Shown here: positions 815 to 63,764 of the stretch, piece by piece | How the letters are laid out: every line of letters begins with the position of its first letter | Position numbering within the stretch: the stretch's first letter is position 1 | Source of the DNA: Desulfurivibrionaceae bacterium | GTDB lineage: Bacteria > Desulfobacterota > Desulfobulbia > Desulfobulbales > VMSU01 | Length of the DNA: 64,000 bases | Direction of reading: 5' to 3' | NCBI GenBank assembly: GCA_030145275.1 | Contig: JAQYVV010000005.1 | Location: 62,001 to 126,000, forward strand | Notes under the pieces: model-generated | Database searches by the model: none | Told to the model about the DNA's origin: nothing | Seen by the model: only the letters and a program-made list of their open reading frames with translations | Translations under genes and position numbers: made by a program

Positions 815-861
815 CGTCATCGGAGTCTGCGCTTATCTCCCGCATGTAGTTAGCGGGAATT
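815..861 (-). repeat. R4 palindromic repeat, copy 2, carrying a mini-insert
   Basis: This R4 copy begins CGTCAT and resumes with CCCGCATGTAGTTAGCGGG. The expected T between the arms is replaced by an 18 bp mini-insert. It lies just upstream of the GIY-YIG gene. Confidence 0.8.
821..838 (-). repeat. Mini-insert A inside R4
   Basis: The sequence on the minus strand is AGATAAGCGCAGACTCCG. It interrupts R4 at the GGA/AT junction. Orientation is defined by AGGTAAGC...CTCCG reading 5' to 3'. Confidence 0.75.
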
Positions 862-1165: not shown

Positions 1166-1215
1166 CTGGATCGGAGTCTGTGCTTACCTCCGGCTAACAA
1201 CATGCCGGAATGACC
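1166..1215 (+). repeat. R4 palindromic repeat, copy 3, carrying a mini-insert
   Basis: CTGGAT, then an 18 bp mini-insert, then CCGGCTAACAACATGCCGGAATGAC. It starts one base after the stop codon of the GIY-YIG gene and is inverted relative to the copy upstream of that gene. Confidence 0.8.
1172..1189 (-). repeat. Mini-insert B inside R4
   Basis: The minus strand reads AGGTAAGCACAGACTCCG. It interrupts R4 at GGA/AT, the same internal junction as mini-insert A. Confidence 0.8.
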
Positions 1216-3294: not shown

Positions 3295-3402
3295 GTAAAT
3301 GTTTGACAACGCTTCAGATGTGTTCGATCAGGTTGGCGAAGCGTAGTAGTTCTACGTGAGTCAGCCTGATCGGGCACAGCTGGAGTGTTGCCGAATATTT
3401 AC
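3295..3402 (+). repeat. R1 interrupted palindrome, copy a (108 bp)
   Basis: The outer arms GTAAATGTTTGACAACGCTTC and its inverted partner end in ATATTTAC, with an invariant centre containing CGTAG-TAGTT-CTACG. It directly abuts the dxr stop codon (3403). Most arm mismatches are G-T or T-G pairs when read on the plus strand. Confidence 0.9.
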
Positions 3403-8447: not shown

Positions 8448-8511
8448 GACAGTATGATAATCTATGTAGATCCGTAAATCTGACAAGGTAGAATTAAGAA
8501 AGTAAATTATC

Positions 8512-8627
8512 TAATCCGGATAAACCGGAAATAAGTGCCTTAACAGTGGTCCGCAACATATTGGGAGCATTGTTCTTTTTTTTGAATTCTTGTTTTTTGT
8601 GACAGGATTTCAGTTATAAGGCACTAA
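8512..8627 (-). repeat. R2 palindromic element, copy a (rpsB-tsf gap)
   Basis: It runs from TAATCCGGATAAACCGGAAATAAGTGCCTTAACAGT to TTATAAGGCACTAAA, with a CCGG hairpin at one end and GTGCCTTA/TAAGGCAC terminal inverted repeats. Nearly identical in reverse complement to the copies at 18828 and 55742 (subfamily I). It lies inside an operon and should be transcribed with it. Confidence 0.85.
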
Positions 8628-8663
8628 AACTATTATATTCTATTAAGTTGTTTATAATTTTTA

Positions 8664-18827: not shown

Positions 18828-18943
18828 TTAGTGCCTTATAACTTAAATTCTGTCACAAAAAACGAGAATTCCAAAAAAGAACAATGTTCCCAATATGTTG
18901 CAGACCACTGTTAAGGCACTTATTTCCGGTTTATCCGGATTAG
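18828..18943 (+). repeat. R2 palindromic element, copy b
   Basis: TTAGTGCCTTATAACTTAAATT...CACTGTTAAGGCACTTATTTCCGG with a terminal CCGG hairpin. It ends 20 bases before the start of the next gene and contains the uninterrupted AAAAAACGAGAATTCC site that is filled in copy d. Confidence 0.88.
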
Positions 18944-25910: not shown

Positions 25911-25959
25911 CTTTTCGCAGTCTTCGCTTAGCTGCAACGCCATCAATCTTGGAGTTACT

Positions 25960-33402: not shown

Positions 33403-33460
33403 AGTCGTTACAAAGAATAACCAAGGAAAAAAGATGTTTTAGACGATATAAATTCAACTT

Positions 33461-33601
33461 AATCCGGAAAAACCGGAAATAAGTGCCTTAACAGTAGAGT
33501 GTAACATGTTTATTTCAAAATACTTTTAAGCATTTCGTGTCTGTTATACCCCTCAAGGGGGTACTGAACTGAGTGGCAGAAATTCGGAGTTAAGGCACTA
33601 A
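33461..33601 (+). repeat. R2 palindromic element, copy c (subfamily II, empty site)
   Basis: AATCCGGAAAAACCGGAAATAAGTGCCTTAACAGTAGAGTG...GTTAAGGCACTA. It contains the uninterrupted TACCCCTCAAGGGGGTA, the empty-site counterpart of the filled copy f. Confidence 0.9.
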
Positions 33602-33637
33602 ATAATATCACAGAGGTTTCTGGAAAACGAGGGAAAT

Positions 33638-44054: not shown

Positions 44055-44179
44055 GTAAACTTGAGATGTGCTTCATATTCGTTCATTTCGGAGTCTATGC
44101 TTACCTGGGCTTCGAAGAATACTTGTGCTATTCGAGAAGACCCAAATGGGCGAAGATGGAGTGCAACTGAATAGTTACG
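44055..44179 (+). repeat. R1-type interrupted palindrome, copy f, split by a mini-insert
   Basis: Arms GTAAACTTGAGATGTGCTTCATATTCGTTCATTT and the inverted ...AAATGGGCGAAGATGGAGTGC...AGTTACG. Removing the 18-bp insert at 44089 leaves 107 bp (R1 copies are 108) and restores a CATTTGGG/CCCAAATG stem. It lies between ilvC and leuB. Confidence 0.8.
44089..44106 (-). repeat. Mini-insert C inside R1 copy f
   Basis: The minus strand reads AGGTAAGCATAGACTCCG. It separates CATTT from GGG in the middle of a stem whose other strand (CCCAAATG) is continuous. Confidence 0.82.
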
Positions 44180-49882: not shown

Positions 49883-50034
49883 GTAAATATTTGGCAACAC
49901 TCCAGCTGCGTTCGATCAGGCTGACTCACGTAGAACTACTACGCTTCGCCAACCTGATCGAACACATCTGAAGCGTTGTCAAACATTTACATTTTGTTGG
50001 TAATTGTTTTTTCCAGTGTTAGTCGAATATTTAT
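49883..50034 (-). repeat. R1 element, copy b, with extension (purL leader)
   Basis: The 108-bp core (49883-49990) plus a 44-bp extension ending AGTCGAATATTTAT. Read on the minus strand, the extension supplies a second copy of the left arm (ATAAATATTCGACTAACACT). This is the sense orientation for purL mRNA. Confidence 0.85.
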
Positions 50035-51077: not shown

Positions 51078-51227
51078 GTAAATATTTGACTAATACCGGT
51101 AAACAACAACCAATAAAATGTAAATGTTTGACAACACTCCAGATATGTTCGATCAGGTTGGCGAAGCGTAGTAGTTCTACGTGAGTCAGCCTGATCGAGC
51201 ATATCTGGAGTGTTGCCAAATATTTAC
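51078..51227 (+). repeat. R1 element, copy c, with extension (AMP nucleosidase leader)
   Basis: The extension GTAAATATTTGACTAA... (51078-51119) is followed by the 108-bp core (51120-51227). The core arms here read GATATG/CATATC where other copies read GATGTG/CACAGC and GATTTG/CGAATC, a covarying position. The orientation is sense for the gene at 51366. Confidence 0.87.
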
Positions 51228-51365
51228 AAAACTTCTATCTTGACCGCAAACTTATCCTTCACTATATATGACAGTGGAAATGAAAAGAAGCAGGGGATAT
51301 TTATATCATTTGTTCCTTGTCACTCCGCCTTTTGCCACTTTGTTACTTAAAAAAGGATACAACTT

Positions 51366-55674: not shown

Positions 55675-55741
55675 CCTTCGGATTGACTGGGAAATTTGAA
55701 ACTTAGAAAGTCAATGCCGTTGACTTGAAATTAGAAATTGT

Positions 55742-55873
55742 TTAGTGCCTTATAACTGAAATCCTGTTACAAAAAACAGGTAGCGAAGACTCCGAGAATT
55801 CCAAAAAAGAACAATGCTCCCAATATGTTGCAGACCACTGTTAAGGCACTTATTTCCGGTTTATCCGGATTAG
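55742..55873 (+). repeat. R2 palindromic element, copy d, carrying a mini-insert
   Basis: Nearly identical to copy b (18828) except that 16 extra bases interrupt AAAAAAC/GAGAATTCC. It sits between comM and bioF. Confidence 0.9.
55778..55794 (+). repeat. Mini-insert H inside R2 copy d
   Basis: AGGTAGCGAAGACTCCG, a 17-base variant in the plus orientation. Copy b provides the empty site. Confidence 0.85.
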
Positions 55874-55937: not shown

Positions 55938-57098
55938 ATGTCTCACTCAAAATTCTCTTTTATTCAGCGGGAACTTCTGCAAAGAAAATCCACCCATCAG
56001 TTCCGTAAACTGCAAAATGTACAGCCGTTAGCAAATGGGAAAATTTCCATTGATGGACGGGTCATGTATAATTTCTGCTCAAATGATTATCTTGGTCTGT
56101 CCAGGCATCCACTATTGCAAGAGCGAGCCCTGCAATTTGTTGAAAAATATGGGAATGGCGCCACCGCCTCACGACTGGTTTGCGGCAATTTATCATGCTA
56201 TGCCGAGGTGGAGGAAAAACTTGCCGCCCTCAAAGGCAGTGAGACTGCCTTGATTTTTAACTCAGGTTTTCAGGCAAACGTCTCGCTTCTTCCTGCCTTA
56301 ACGGATCGACATTCCTTGATTATTGCAGATAAACTCTGTCATAATAGTCTAGTTCAGGGGAGTCTTTTGAGTCGAGGTACCTTTTTACGCTATCGTCATA
56401 ACGATTTGGAGAATTTAACAGAGCTCCTGCGAAAGAATAGTACCAAGAAATATTCCAGGATATTTATCGTCACAGAATCAGTTTTCAGTATGGATGGTGA
56501 TCTCAGTGATATAGTGGCTTTGAAGGGATTGGCCGAAAAATATAATGCGATTTTGCTTATTGATGAGGCCCATGCCACTGGAGTTTTTGGTGAAAATGGG
56601 ATGGGGTTGACCTGCGGGATGGATGTTGACTTGGTTATGGGTACCTTTGGGAAGGCATGTGGTTCGTTTGGCGCCTATATAACTTGTTCTAAGGATATTG
56701 CTGATTATCTGATTAATTACTGTAGCGGCTTGATATACAGTACTGCCTTGCCTCCTTCAGTGCTTGGGGCAGTTGATGCCTCCCTTGATCTGATTCCTGG
56801 TATGATGCCCGAGAGGCAGTATCTTGCGGAAATATCCGCATATCTCCGTGATGCATTGAATAATCTCGGTTTTAATACTGGACAATCCAATAGCCAGATA
56901 ATTCCCGTGATCATCGGCTCTGAAAAAGAAACAATACAATTGTCTGAATGGCTTGCTGAGCATTCAATTCTTGCATCTGCTATTCGTCCTCCTACGGTGG
57001 ACAAAGGGAAAGCTCGAATCCGACTTACCCTTTCAGCCTTGCATACAAAAAAACATATTGATCATCTAATCCATGTCCTGCAAAAATGGCGGCAATAA
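55938..57098 (+). CDS. bioF: 8-amino-7-oxononanoate synthase
   Basis: PLP enzyme joining pimeloyl-ACP and L-alanine, the first ring-building step of biotin synthesis. 'NDYLGLSRHP', 'LLIDEAHATGVFG' and the PLP lysine in 'MGTFGKACGSFGAYI' are present. 386 residues. No obvious Shine-Dalgarno precedes ATG 55938. Its end overlaps the next gene by 26 bases. Confidence 0.94.
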   Translation: MSHSKFSFIQRELLQRKSTHQFRKLQNVQPLANGKISIDGRVMYNFCSNDYLGLSRHPLLQERALQFVEKYGNGATASRLVCGNLSCYAEVEEKLAALKGSETALIFNSGFQANVSLLPALTDRHSLIIADKLCHNSLVQGSLLSRGTFLRYRHNDLENLTELLRKNSTKKYSRIFIVTESVFSMDGDLSDIVALKGLAEKYNAILLIDEAHATGVFGENGMGLTCGMDVDLVMGTFGKACGSFGAYITCSKDIADYLINYCSGLIYSTALPPSVLGAVDASLDLIPGMMPERQYLAEISAYLRDALNNLGFNTGQSNSQIIPVIIGSEKETIQLSEWLAEHSILASAIRPPTVDKGKARIRLTLSALHTKKHIDHLIHVLQKWRQ

Positions 57099-57780
57099 CA
57101 TTAATATTTTATTTCAGCATGGCTGGGGTTTTGATAGAAATTGCTGGAATAAAATGGTCCCTCCTGATAAAAGGTTGAAGCTATTTTTTCCGGATAGGGG
57201 ATATTTTTCTTCTTACCGAAATGAATTAGATCTACCGGTAGAGGGGATTAATCTCCTTGTTTGCCATTCACTCGGTCTTCATCTTCTTCCCGAGACTCTT
57301 TTTACTAAATGTCAGGTCCTGGTGCTGATCGGATGTTTTCAGGCCTTCCATGCTGAAACTGAACTTGATGTGAGCATATCAAGAAAGTACGTCCGCAGCA
57401 TGTTGCAGGAGTTAGACGATAGGCCACGCAGGGTGCTCCAAAAATTTCATAAAAACTGCGGTTCTCGTCTTTTTCTTCATAAAGAGGAATGTATAAACAG
57501 GAAACTATTGATTGATGATCTACTTTTTTTAGATAGCAATCGTTTCAATTTAGATACAATAGGCGATATTCCCAGGGTTTTATTGTTACACGGAGTCAAA
57601 GACAAAATAGTACCAGTGCAAAGGAGCAGGGATATTGCAGCCAAACTGAAAAACGCCACTCTCGTCGAAGTTGAAAATGCCGGCCACGGTTTACCACTTA
57701 CCCATCCTAAAATGTGTTGGGATCTCATTAGTGAAACGCTTACGGACTCGGGGTATGCAATCTTGGGTGTACTTAATTGA
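57073..57780 (+). CDS. BioG/BioH-type pimeloyl-ACP methyl ester esterase
   Basis: 235-residue alpha/beta hydrolase. The nucleophile is in 'VCHSLGLH'; 'VKDKIVPV' and 'NAGHGLPLTHP' provide the Asp and His. 'ILFQHGWGFDRNCW' is typical of the BioG/BioH group. Its place between bioF and bioC indicates demethylation of pimeloyl-ACP methyl ester. The last 15 or so residues (TLTDSGYAILGVLN) come from a 57-bp sequence that also occurs after the chemoreceptor gene. Confidence 0.8.
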   Translation: MSCKNGGNNINILFQHGWGFDRNCWNKMVPPDKRLKLFFPDRGYFSSYRNELDLPVEGINLLVCHSLGLHLLPETLFTKCQVLVLIGCFQAFHAETELDVSISRKYVRSMLQELDDRPRRVLQKFHKNCGSRLFLHKEECINRKLLIDDLLFLDSNRFNLDTIGDIPRVLLLHGVKDKIVPVQRSRDIAAKLKNATLVEVENAGHGLPLTHPKMCWDLISETLTDSGYAILGVLN

Positions 57781-57788
57781 TCGCCAAC
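57732..57788 (+). repeat. R5 dispersed 57-bp repeat, copy 1
   Basis: TGAAACGCTTACGGACTCGG...ACTTAATTGATCGCCAAC. About 93% identical to 61823-61879 (4 mismatches by eye). It provides the C-terminal codons and stop of the BioG/BioH-type gene. Confidence 0.8.
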
Positions 57789-57830
57789 GTGAAAAGAATA
57801 TTTCACTGACACAATACCTTTTTTACCCCG

Positions 57831-58043
57831 AATCCGGATAAACCGGAAATAAGTACCTTAACAGTAGATGCAACACCTTTAAATGAATATACTTTTTTCA
57901 TTTCTTGCCACTCAGTTCAGTACCCCCTCGGAGTCTAACGCTTACCTGAAGGGTATAAAAAACACGAAAATGACTTATAAGGTACTAACACCCCACAAGG
58001 GGGTACTGAACTGAGTGGCAGAAATTCAGCGCTAAGGCACTAA
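57831..58043 (+). repeat. R2 composite element, copy e, carrying a mini-insert
   Basis: A complete subfamily II element (57831-57988) with a mini-insert at 57929, joined to the right half of a second R2 (57989-58043) that contains an empty CACCCCACAAGGGGGT site. It ends 7 bases before bioC. Confidence 0.87.
57929..57947 (-). repeat. Mini-insert E inside R2 copy e
   Basis: The minus strand reads AGGTAAGCGTTAGACTCCG (19 bases), identical to mini-insert F. Confidence 0.85.
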
Positions 58044-58050
58044 ATATAGA

Positions 58051-58839
58051 ATGGAACATATTATTAAAAAGCATATAGCCCGGACTTTTACTCGCTATTC
58101 CGATACCTATGATCAATATGCAAAACTGCAAAAATTAAGTGCAGGGTTTATATTTGAAAATATAGAAGAAATTATCTCCTCCATGCCTGTAGGTCCTGTG
58201 CTTGAAATTGGCTGTGGCTCAGGATTAGTAAGTGAGGAAATTGTTAAACGACTGCCCCAAAGAGATCTGGTTTTAATGGATATCTCAGCCGGCATGCTCA
58301 CAACATGCAGGAAAAGACTTAACGATGCCAGCTTAAATCATGCTGGGATACAGTATGTTGAAAATGATGCTGAAAAATTAAATGAACAAAATAAATACGC
58401 ACTTATTGTCTCGGGGTTGACCCTGCAGTGGTTTCATAATATTAGCGCAGGTGTGGAGAAAATTGTAAACGCTTTGCTGCCTGGTGGGATTTTTGTCTGT
58501 TCTTTTCTAGGAGAAGGCTCTTTTCTGGAATGGCAGGAGCAGTGTGAAAATAGCAAGGTTCCATGTACCTTGAATCCCTTGCCTGATTTTAATTTTATCA
58601 CTAAGAGGTTCAAGGAAGAAGTTAAAGATATTAGCTTTGCCCAAAACAGCCTGACTCTTTCATATCCATCTGTGCATGATTTTTTTGTTTCCCTCAAAAA
58701 AACAGGGACCGGAGTCAATGTCTCCGGTCAAAAAAATTCTCTTGCTGAAATGCGAAGATTGATAAGGGAGTGGGAGCAGACATCCCCGAATGGTGTGGAT
58801 GTTACCTGTAAAATAAACTGTCTGACAATTACCAGATAA
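58051..58839 (+). CDS. bioC: Malonyl-ACP O-methyltransferase
   Basis: SAM methyltransferase that masks malonyl-ACP to start pimelate synthesis. The SAM motif 'VLEIGCGSGLVSEEI' lies near residue 50, and the N-terminal 'ARTFTRYSDTYDQYAKLQ' matches the BioC start. 262 residues. The only bases between the R2 element and the ATG are ATATAGA, so no normal Shine-Dalgarno is available. The R2 element probably interrupted a biotin operon. Confidence 0.92.
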   Translation: MEHIIKKHIARTFTRYSDTYDQYAKLQKLSAGFIFENIEEIISSMPVGPVLEIGCGSGLVSEEIVKRLPQRDLVLMDISAGMLTTCRKRLNDASLNHAGIQYVENDAEKLNEQNKYALIVSGLTLQWFHNISAGVEKIVNALLPGGIFVCSFLGEGSFLEWQEQCENSKVPCTLNPLPDFNFITKRFKEEVKDISFAQNSLTLSYPSVHDFFVSLKKTGTGVNVSGQKNSLAEMRRLIREWEQTSPNGVDVTCKINCLTITR

Positions 58840-58940
58840 AGCATATTTATTACCACGAAACACACGAAAAGAAAAGAGTTGAAAAATTCGTGTATCATGA
58901 GTGTTTCTTACCCTCAAGGGCATAAATGGTTGAATGAAAA

Positions 58941-59591
58941 ATGGTAGAACACATGGCTAAGGCCAAACATTTATTTATTACAGGAACAGATACGGGTGTA
59001 GGGAAAACCGTGGTGTCTGCCATCTTGACCGCAGGAATGGGCGCAAGTTATTGGAAACCGATTCAATGCGGCCTTGAGGAGCAAACGGATACCGAATTTG
59101 TTCGGGAGGTAACAGGACTATCTGACCAATATTTTCACCCGGAGGCATATAGATTAGCTCAACCTCTTTCTCCCCATGCTGCCGCCGAAATAGATAATGT
59201 TAAAATTGATTTGGGCAGAATTTGTCCCCCTGAAAAATGTCTCAGAGGAGCTCTGATAGTTGAGGGCGCTGGAGGGATTATGGTGCCGCTCAACCAGGAA
59301 GATTTCATGATTGATTTAATGAAAAAGTTGAATATGCCGGTTTTGTTGGTGGCTCGGAGTACGTTGGGTACAATTAATCACACACTTTTATCTCTTCAGG
59401 CATTACGAGGTCGTGGACTTGAGGTTCTTGGTGTTGTGATGAACGGTCCTAGAAACAGGGGGAATAAAAAAGCCCTGGAAAAATACGGTAAAACAAAAGT
59501 GTTGGCAGAAATCGAGCCTATTGCAGACATGACATCAGTTGATTTGACTGGAAAATTTAAGGAATGTTTCTGCAAAGATATGCCCAAGTAG
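58941..59591 (+). CDS. bioD: Dethiobiotin synthetase
   Basis: ATP-dependent ring closure of DAPA with CO2. The P-loop 'GTDTGVGKTVVSA' is near residue 15; 'VEGAGGIMVPL' and 'VARSTLGTINHTLLSLQAL' are typical. ATG 58941 or 58953 are both possible. 216 residues, normal. bioA and bioB are not in the window. Confidence 0.94.
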   Translation: MVEHMAKAKHLFITGTDTGVGKTVVSAILTAGMGASYWKPIQCGLEEQTDTEFVREVTGLSDQYFHPEAYRLAQPLSPHAAAEIDNVKIDLGRICPPEKCLRGALIVEGAGGIMVPLNQEDFMIDLMKKLNMPVLLVARSTLGTINHTLLSLQALRGRGLEVLGVVMNGPRNRGNKKALEKYGKTKVLAEIEPIADMTSVDLTGKFKECFCKDMPK

Positions 59592-59645
59592 AGGTCTTTT
59601 TAGTGCCTTAGCGCTGAATTTCTGCCACTCAGTTCAGTACCCCCT

Positions 59646-59664
59646 CGGAGTCTAACGCTTACCT
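59646..59664 (-). repeat. Mini-insert F inside R2 copy f
   Basis: The minus strand reads AGGTAAGCGTTAGACTCCG. The empty site in copy c reads CCCCTCAAGGGGG; here the same flanks enclose the insert. Confidence 0.88.
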
Positions 59665-59747
59665 GAGGGGTGTAAAAAACACGGAATGCTTAAAAGTATT
59701 TTGAAATAAACATGTTACACTCTACTGTTAAGGCACTTATACCCCCT

Positions 59748-59766
59748 CGGAGTCTGACGCTTACCT
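59748..59766 (-). repeat. Mini-insert G
   Basis: The minus strand reads AGGTAAGCGTCAGACTCCG. The empty counterpart is AACACCCCACAAGGGGG at 57987-58003 in copy e. Confidence 0.87.
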
Positions 59767-59965
59767 GTGGGGTGTTAGAAAGTTTATGACAGACAAAGCA
59801 TATAACCTAAAATAGGCAAAATACTGTTAAATATTATAGTTTGATTTATTAATAAATAACCGGTATTACTACCAGTTCAAGAAGTCCTGGGACTGGTGTT
59901 TTTTTTCATTGGTGCTCGGTTAAGAAATTGCATTGAAAACTTATGTTGATTCGAGCTCTATAAAT

Positions 59966-61822: not shown

Positions 61823-61879
61823 TGAAACACTTACGGACTAGGGTTATGCAATCTTGGGTGTACTTAATTGATCGCTAAC
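61823..61879 (+). repeat. R5 dispersed 57-bp repeat, copy 2
   Basis: A near-copy of the end of the BioG/BioH-type gene, located 4 bases after the chemoreceptor stop. Here it is noncoding. Confidence 0.8.
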
Positions 61880-63581: not shown

Positions 63582-63611
63582 GATGAGGTGAAAATATTTC
63601 AGTTGTTTTTC

Positions 63612-63764
63612 GTAAATATTCGGCAACACTCCAGATTCGCCCGATCAGGCTGACTCACGTAGAGCTACTACGCTTCGCCAACCTGATCGAACAAATCTGA
63701 AGCGTTGTCAAACATTTACATTTTGTTGGTTGTTGTTGTTTTCAAGTGTTAGTCGAATATTTAC
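63612..63764 (-). repeat. R1 element, copy d, with extension (channel-gene leader)
   Basis: Core 63612-63719, extension 63720-63764 ending AGTCGAATATTTAC. The minus orientation is sense for the channel gene, whose start is 30 bases away. Confidence 0.87.

Follow-up and report, generated by a model that had tools for sequence, protein, structure and literature searches.

A preliminary description of this DNA had noted that two pairs of sites related to the R2 elements differ by a net 18 bases at A^A in the loop of a C/G-rich hairpin, and had read them as filled and empty sites of an insertion into single-stranded or cruciform DNA. The locus therefore raises the question of whether an 18-nt block was inserted at these sites and, if so, how so small a sequence might move. 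The features of the window (the whole 64,000-nt stretch that was analyzed) that bear on the original pairs are as follows.

59599 to 59740, minus strand: R2f, a MITE-like host element carrying the unit, with ends TTAGTGCCTTA and TAAGGCACTTA
59646 to 59663, minus strand: 18-nt unit GGTAAGCGTTAGACTCCG in its TT form, occupying the filled site of R2f, from alignment (empty copies R2c and L042)
33479 to 33602 (region 33460-33604), plus strand: R2c, host element without the unit
33555 to 33556, plus strand: empty site CCCCTCA^AGGGGG in R2c, from alignment
59748 to 59765, minus strand: 18-nt unit GGTAAGCGTCAGACTCCG, TC form, in a CACCCCACA^AGGGGG hairpin (empty copies R2e and L032)
57997 to 57998, plus strand: empty site CACCCCACA^AGGGGG in R2e, from alignment
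57929 to 57946, minus strand: 18-nt unit GGTAAGCGTTAGACTCCG, filled site in an arm of the R2e region
8511-8628, 18828-18943, 55741-55873 and 57830-58046: other R2 host elements, intergenic and MITE-like

Pairwise alignment of R2c (33476-33604, plus strand) with R2f (59598-59744, minus strand) gave 118 identical positions in 128 ungapped columns and one clean gap of 18 nt, located exactly at CCCCTCA^AGGGGG, the two sequences otherwise agreeing over the 7 nt adjacent to the junction. The block that separates the two elements is GGTAAGCGTTAGACTCCG, placed between A and A. The second pair, R2e (57961-58048, plus strand) and the copy in the 59742 region (59728-59790, minus strand), likewise bore out the reported difference at A^A, in that identity over CTAACACCCCACA^AGGGGGTA was broken by a single 18-nt gap; this block is the TC form of the first and is placed at the same dinucleotide. 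The flanks of the second pair diverge farther out because the copy at 59748 does not lie within the same kind of element, and the term "half element" that had been applied to it is imprecise, as 59740-59781 corresponds to a second CACCCCAC..GGGGG hairpin that abuts the end of R2f. Within the same genome, the best unit-free partners of the copies at 59646 and 59748 were L042 (96.7% over 90 nt) and L032 (100% over 59 nt), respectively, each with a clean junction. The window holds three 18-nt copies, all on the minus strand, where none is expected by chance; the interval first delimited, 59640-59770, covers two of them, and the third (57929-57946) lies outside it. Among 35 distinct CCCC..GGGGGTACTGAACTGAG copies examined from the genome, 19 were filled and 16 empty, L025, which has a variant unit, being counted as filled.

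Allowing up to 3 mismatches, the R2 end word was matched 195 times in the genome, compared with 23 matches for the reversed control. R2 is a host from which the unit is separate, as the unit is also found in unrelated repeats. Because most of the unit copies within R2 in this genome were amplified by the host element, multiplying with it after insertion, insertion events are far fewer than copies. Other repeats were observed in the window as well. A second intergenic hairpin repeat of ~130 nt, with copies ~92-96% alike at 3295-3402, 49883-50015, 51102-51231 and 63608-63744, apparently hosts the unit at TTTGACA^ACGCTTCAG in other parts of the genome, and a 57-nt repeat (93% alike; 57732-57788 and 61823-61879) overlaps an ORF end (TGAAACGCTTACGGACT...). 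A run of ORFs with R2 elements between the genes occupies 55938-59591; from its sequence patterns, this run resembles a biotin operon (bioF/bioH/bioC/bioD).

The R2 block proved to be one version of a unit, GRTAAGCGNAGACTYCG, that is most commonly 17 nt long and is 18 nt long in the R2 copies. Its consensus is G(1)R(2)TAAGCG-N-AGACTY(15)CG(17), preceded by A and followed by R. The core TAAGCGN{1,3}AGACTYCG had 268 exact matches in the source genome (G000; a 3.09-Mb draft in 67 contigs, 84.4% complete), and a reversed-pattern control had 0. With a tolerant pattern, 83 units were found in 464 kb, comprising the window and 400 kb of two contigs, and the reversed pattern was found at 4 places altogether; only 3 of the 83 lay within ORFs, while ORFs of at least 100 codons make up 82.6% of this DNA. 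The other 80 units, all outside ORFs, group into 70 runs, 8 of which are tandem, with up to three copies in this genome and six in a relative (L310). Other units in the window are listed below.

821 to 837, minus strand: 17-nt unit GATAAGCGCAGACTCCG, located at CGGGA^ATGACG at the foot of a D7-type hairpin
1172 to 1188, minus strand: 17-nt unit GGTAAGCACAGACTCCG, at GCCGGA^ATCCAG of a D7-type hairpin
25916 to 25932, minus strand: 17-nt unit GCTAAGCGAAGACTGCG, with positions 2 and 15 forming a compensated C-G pair
44089 to 44105, minus strand: 17-nt unit GGTAAGCATAGACTCCG, with empty copies CCC[T/C]^AAATGA elsewhere in the genome
53648 to 53664, minus strand: decayed unit GATAAGCGCAGACATCA, in the same host repeat as L285:7389
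55779 to 55794, plus strand: decayed unit of 16 nt, GGTAGCGAAGACTCCG, within an R2 element, site AAAACA^AGAATTCC

No match at the Rfam gathering score was obtained in the window. A search for a larger parent sharing the ends of the unit revealed no gene-bearing parent at spacings of 4-34 nt in the genome or up to 60 nt in the fetched loci; it yielded middles of 7, 8, 9 and 11 nt, together with tandem or chance spans. An integron attC site was dropped as a candidate, the resemblance being limited to the TT form.

Empty copies were sought by joining 45 nt of flank from each side of a unit and searching DNA of the same genome, after removal of subjects containing the unit core. Under the stricter filter, a clean empty copy was found for 33 of the 70 runs, at least one of which (number 61, a decayed unit) is an artefact, and the comparison is between filled and empty copies of host repeats, not between orthologous single-copy loci of closely related genomes. 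By our own grouping, the empties of the source genome represent about 17 different target words, which include CCCTCA^AGGGGG, CCCACA^AGGGGG, AAAACA^AGAATT, TGTTCA^GATGTG, GAACGA^ATATGA, ACACGA^AAATGA, TTGACA^ACGCTT and CCCTGA^ATGTTT, among others. A clean empty copy was likewise found for 32 of 166 contexts from other genomes, the loci compared not having been selected for empties.

One insertion was observed in a coding gene. In L117 (contig JAESPV010000073.1, Desulfocapsa sp. NORP205), a unit splits the frame of a group II intron reverse transcriptase. Of the two halves, the left one (130 aa) matches residues 3-88 of the GsI-IIC reverse transcriptase up to its own final residue, and the right one matches residues 90-178 starting at its first residue; the interrupted codon is 89, CA^A, with A on both sides of the target, and the net change is +17 nt. 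Since the match ends at 88 and resumes at 90, exactly 17 nt were added in L117, with none lost or duplicated. A scan of 331 contexts gave no other convincing coding case; the remaining frames that it listed either did not correspond to recognized genes or had the junction near an end. With some 17 target words, 145 independent contexts and a cleanly interrupted gene, the filled and empty site reading is strongly supported. Altogether, we are nearly certain that the unit has inserted cleanly into many unrelated sequences, directly 3' of A and without target duplication or loss. The targets are mostly CA^A or CA^G, are mostly intergenic and are often other hairpin repeats.

Target preference was assessed on independent contexts, for which 303 distinct contexts were clustered at 60% flank identity into 145, namely 46 from this genome, 83 from other genomes and 16 from viral contigs. 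In this genome, 44 of the 46 independent sites had A at -1 and the other 2 had G; C stood at -2 in 31 of 46, and the base at +1 was A in 33 and G in 8. The 83 contexts of other genomes were mostly found with a pattern that demands CA and are uninformative on the CA preference. In three host families, most empties had T, C or G at -1 while the filled copies had A; either the unit entered rare copies bearing A (one family included three such copies), or the A arrives with the unit. When the flanks were joined, a predicted hairpin loop (≤12 nt) was present at 43 of 145 sites, compared with 236 of 1089 intergenic A^R sites taken as controls (odds ratio 1.5, p=0.035), and stable hairpins at 19 of 145 sites versus 59 of 1089 controls (odds ratio 2.6, p=0.0015). 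Several insertions are at a stem base and most are outside any loop, so that the constant feature of the sites is the A immediately 5' of the unit. Thus, of the original proposal that loops are targeted through single-stranded or cruciform DNA, a modest preference is weakly supported, and a rule is not. Perhaps this enrichment is partly owed to the host repeats being hairpins themselves.

The unit is conserved as a hairpin. In the source genome, positions 2 and 15 were G-C in 49, A-T in 34, C-G in 1 and mismatched or wobble in 3 of 87 units; they were Watson-Crick in 150 of 157 units of other DNA examined, and these two columns had by far the highest mutual information. The C-G form GYTAAGCGNAGACTRCG occurred 72 times in 146 genomes, 55 of these in G002, where it is the main form, although many of the 55 are two units within one amplified host repeat and do not represent 55 events; GYTAAGCGNAGACTYCG occurred 25 times in the 146 genomes. 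The middle of the unit has quantized lengths of 1, 2, 7, 8, 9 and 11 nt, and in the 12 distinct 9-nt middles, pair 2/8 was Watson-Crick in all 12 (A-T in 7, C-G in 5) and pair 3/7 in 10. This covariation shows a conserved hairpin, with an additional covarying apical stem in the longer forms. For the unit as isolated DNA, the predicted folding is weak or absent (0 to -4.8 kcal/mol); the hairpin therefore rests on covariation rather than energy, and pairing may need a protein, an RNA form or a host stem. Where the R2 hairpin is filled, base pairs of the unit are predicted to lengthen the host stem around a bulged A.

Two arrangements of paired units were also observed. The G002 loci L307, L308 and L309 contain a host repeat in which two C-G-type units, 33 nt apart, have the same compensated pair, which suggests that the units changed in concert or derive from a master copy. 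At L028:1450-1560, both arms of a D7-type hairpin carry a unit as mirror images that are part of the stem, which suggests that one arm was copied onto the other.

Among 146 genomes from the order, 80 carried the form GRTAAGCGNAGACTYCG, with 226 copies in the source genome (the most) and 0 to 111 in the others; 66 of the 146 had no copies, and the controls gave 0. A sample of the phylum contained 6 genomes with the unit among 297, 4 of them in the order, i.e., 2 of ~285 elsewhere. Named genomes gave at least 108 matching stretches; among the matches listed, most were from Desulfobulbaceae, Desulfocapsa, Desulfogranum, Desulforhopalus and Desulfobulbus, and some were titled only to higher ranks or as Desulfobacteraceae. 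The range of the unit thus appears to be the Desulfobulbales, an order of bacteria active in sulfur cycling. Viral contigs gave 27 matching stretches, some of them probably due to chance.

Several other explanations were weighed against these results. If the 18-nt block were ancestral and had been deleted from the empty copies, the AGG..AGG direct repeats at its ends could have promoted the deletion, and some copies (AAAAAACG^AGAATTCC) resemble possible deletion footprints. However, the unit occupies about 17 unrelated target words and splits a conserved reverse-transcriptase codon in L117; given the unrelated targets, the unit-free copies and L117, we therefore reject deletion as scarcely credible. 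Alternatively, the unit might be a binding site with a function, for instance a signal for uptake or segregation, that was retained by selection rather than inserted; this would agree with its many copies, conserved sequence and intergenic placement, but is very improbable in view of the clean filled and empty pairs, the 66 of 146 genomes of the order with 0 copies and the copy that breaks a gene. A function may have been gained after insertion. It is also unlikely that no dedicated enzyme is involved and that template switching during host replication occurs at hairpins, with the flanking CA and A as microhomology. The target preference CA^A does equal the flanks of source copies, stable hairpins are enriched 2.6-fold at the sites and tandem runs exist (8 of 70), but template switching predicts variable end points, whereas the ends of the unit are constant to the base in most copies, and the covarying pairs retained in the unit imply recognition.

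Movement by a known enzyme class was also considered. An RNA and reverse-transcriptase route has been proposed for cyanobacterial small dispersed repeats, and the conserved hairpin of the unit could be RNA; moreover, the source genome has 2 RVT_1 matches. However, G005 (103 copies, 95% complete), G002, G007 and G009 have no RVT_1 match, and with 14 units in the same orientation as co-directional genes and 26 opposite, there was no significant transcript-strand bias, which makes movement through an RNA copy quite unlikely. Y1 (HUH) transposases act on single-stranded bulged hairpins and produce no target duplication, and one of the IS200/IS605 or RAYT type might move the unit as a REP-like sequence. 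This chemistry fits a hairpin inserted without duplication, and Y1_Tnp genes are present in 33 of 38 genomes. Yet the source genome, the richest in units, had 0 Y1_Tnp matches at 84.4% completeness; unit and Y1 match numbers were uncorrelated across the 38 genomes (Spearman 0.06, p=0.71); and at 14 Y1 loci of unit-bearing genomes (L293-L306) there was no genuine unit nearby, only two decayed, chance-like matches. At L291 and L292 a unit does lie near a Y1 gene, but both loci were chosen for that. IS200/IS605 elements insert without duplication 3' of a fixed tetra- or pentanucleotide; at the unit junctions no duplication was seen, and only A at -1 is constant, C being at -2 in 31 of 46. A Y1 transposase is a distinctly improbable agent.

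In our view, a very small mobile repeat probably gave rise to the 18-nt block, which would be a copy inserted as a folded single strand via a trans-acting factor. The fixed ends, the hairpin and the lack of target duplication suggest recognition of the folded single strand in trans, and the chances that insertion is indeed single-stranded and enzyme-driven appear to be about even. According to this model, the folded single-stranded unit would be recognized by a putative trans-acting factor of the Desulfobulbales, which would cut 3' of A and join the unit without target duplication; exposed hairpin loops would be somewhat favored but not required, and tandem copies might arise from repeated insertion or slippage. 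More tentatively, the unit could rank as the smallest mobile DNA unit known that looks autonomous, a 17-nt hairpin spread through one order by a putative dedicated hairpin-recognizing recombinase, distinct from both Y1 transposases and reverse transcriptases, that would insert it precisely 3' of A in exposed single-stranded DNA.

No published description of the unit was found, its sequence spellings matching no paper searched, with coverage elsewhere consisting of titles and the beginnings of abstracts; no literature on MITEs or repeats of the Desulfobulbaceae was found either. Among known repeats, the Beggiatoaceae TAACTGA repeats are 7-nt direct, intergenic repeats of one family and are not known to form hairpins; the unit resembles them as a tiny intergenic repeat of one family but differs from their 7-nt direct form. 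Like MITEs, the unit is non-autonomous, intergenic and present in many copies. Unlike them, it is asymmetric, has no terminal inverted repeats and showed no target duplication at either aligned junction, and the MITE-like R2 elements are its hosts. REP/REPIN sequences with RAYT are short, extragenic hairpins of high copy number, according to passages of PMC3116915, and the unit shares all of these features. It differs from them in that its richest genome is without a Y1 transposase, no adjacency was found in 14 loci, and its sequence is asymmetric. Single and tandem copies of the unit predominate over inverted doublets; some inverted pairs do occur at a fixed distance, because one host repeat holds two sites.

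The closest comparison is with the small dispersed repeats (SDR) of Nostoc and relatives, which are reportedly dispersed units of 21-27 nt that form hairpins with compensatory changes and for which no mover is known. They are also said to occur within minitransposon-like repeats and in tandem, and to be confined to one coherent clade. In descriptive terms, the unit shows the same features: it is very short and clade-confined, dispersed as 17-18 nt in 145 independent contexts, mobile as seen in the filled and empty sites and L117, compensated in its hairpin, and found in minitransposon-like repeats and in tandem. SDR are discussed in citing passages of PMC2884548 and PMC3116915. How DNA units too small to encode anything or to hold two transposon ends can spread has been a question since SDR. 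The present family is smaller and offers base-exact junctions, hundreds of copies, host repeats in both states, unit-free sister genomes and cultured relatives (Desulfogranum, Desulforhopalus) that carry the unit, and a direct search for the moving enzyme is therefore possible. In contrast to SDR, the unit is 17 nt rather than 21-27 nt long, belongs to another phylum, is inserted 3' of A and has a quantized apical stem.
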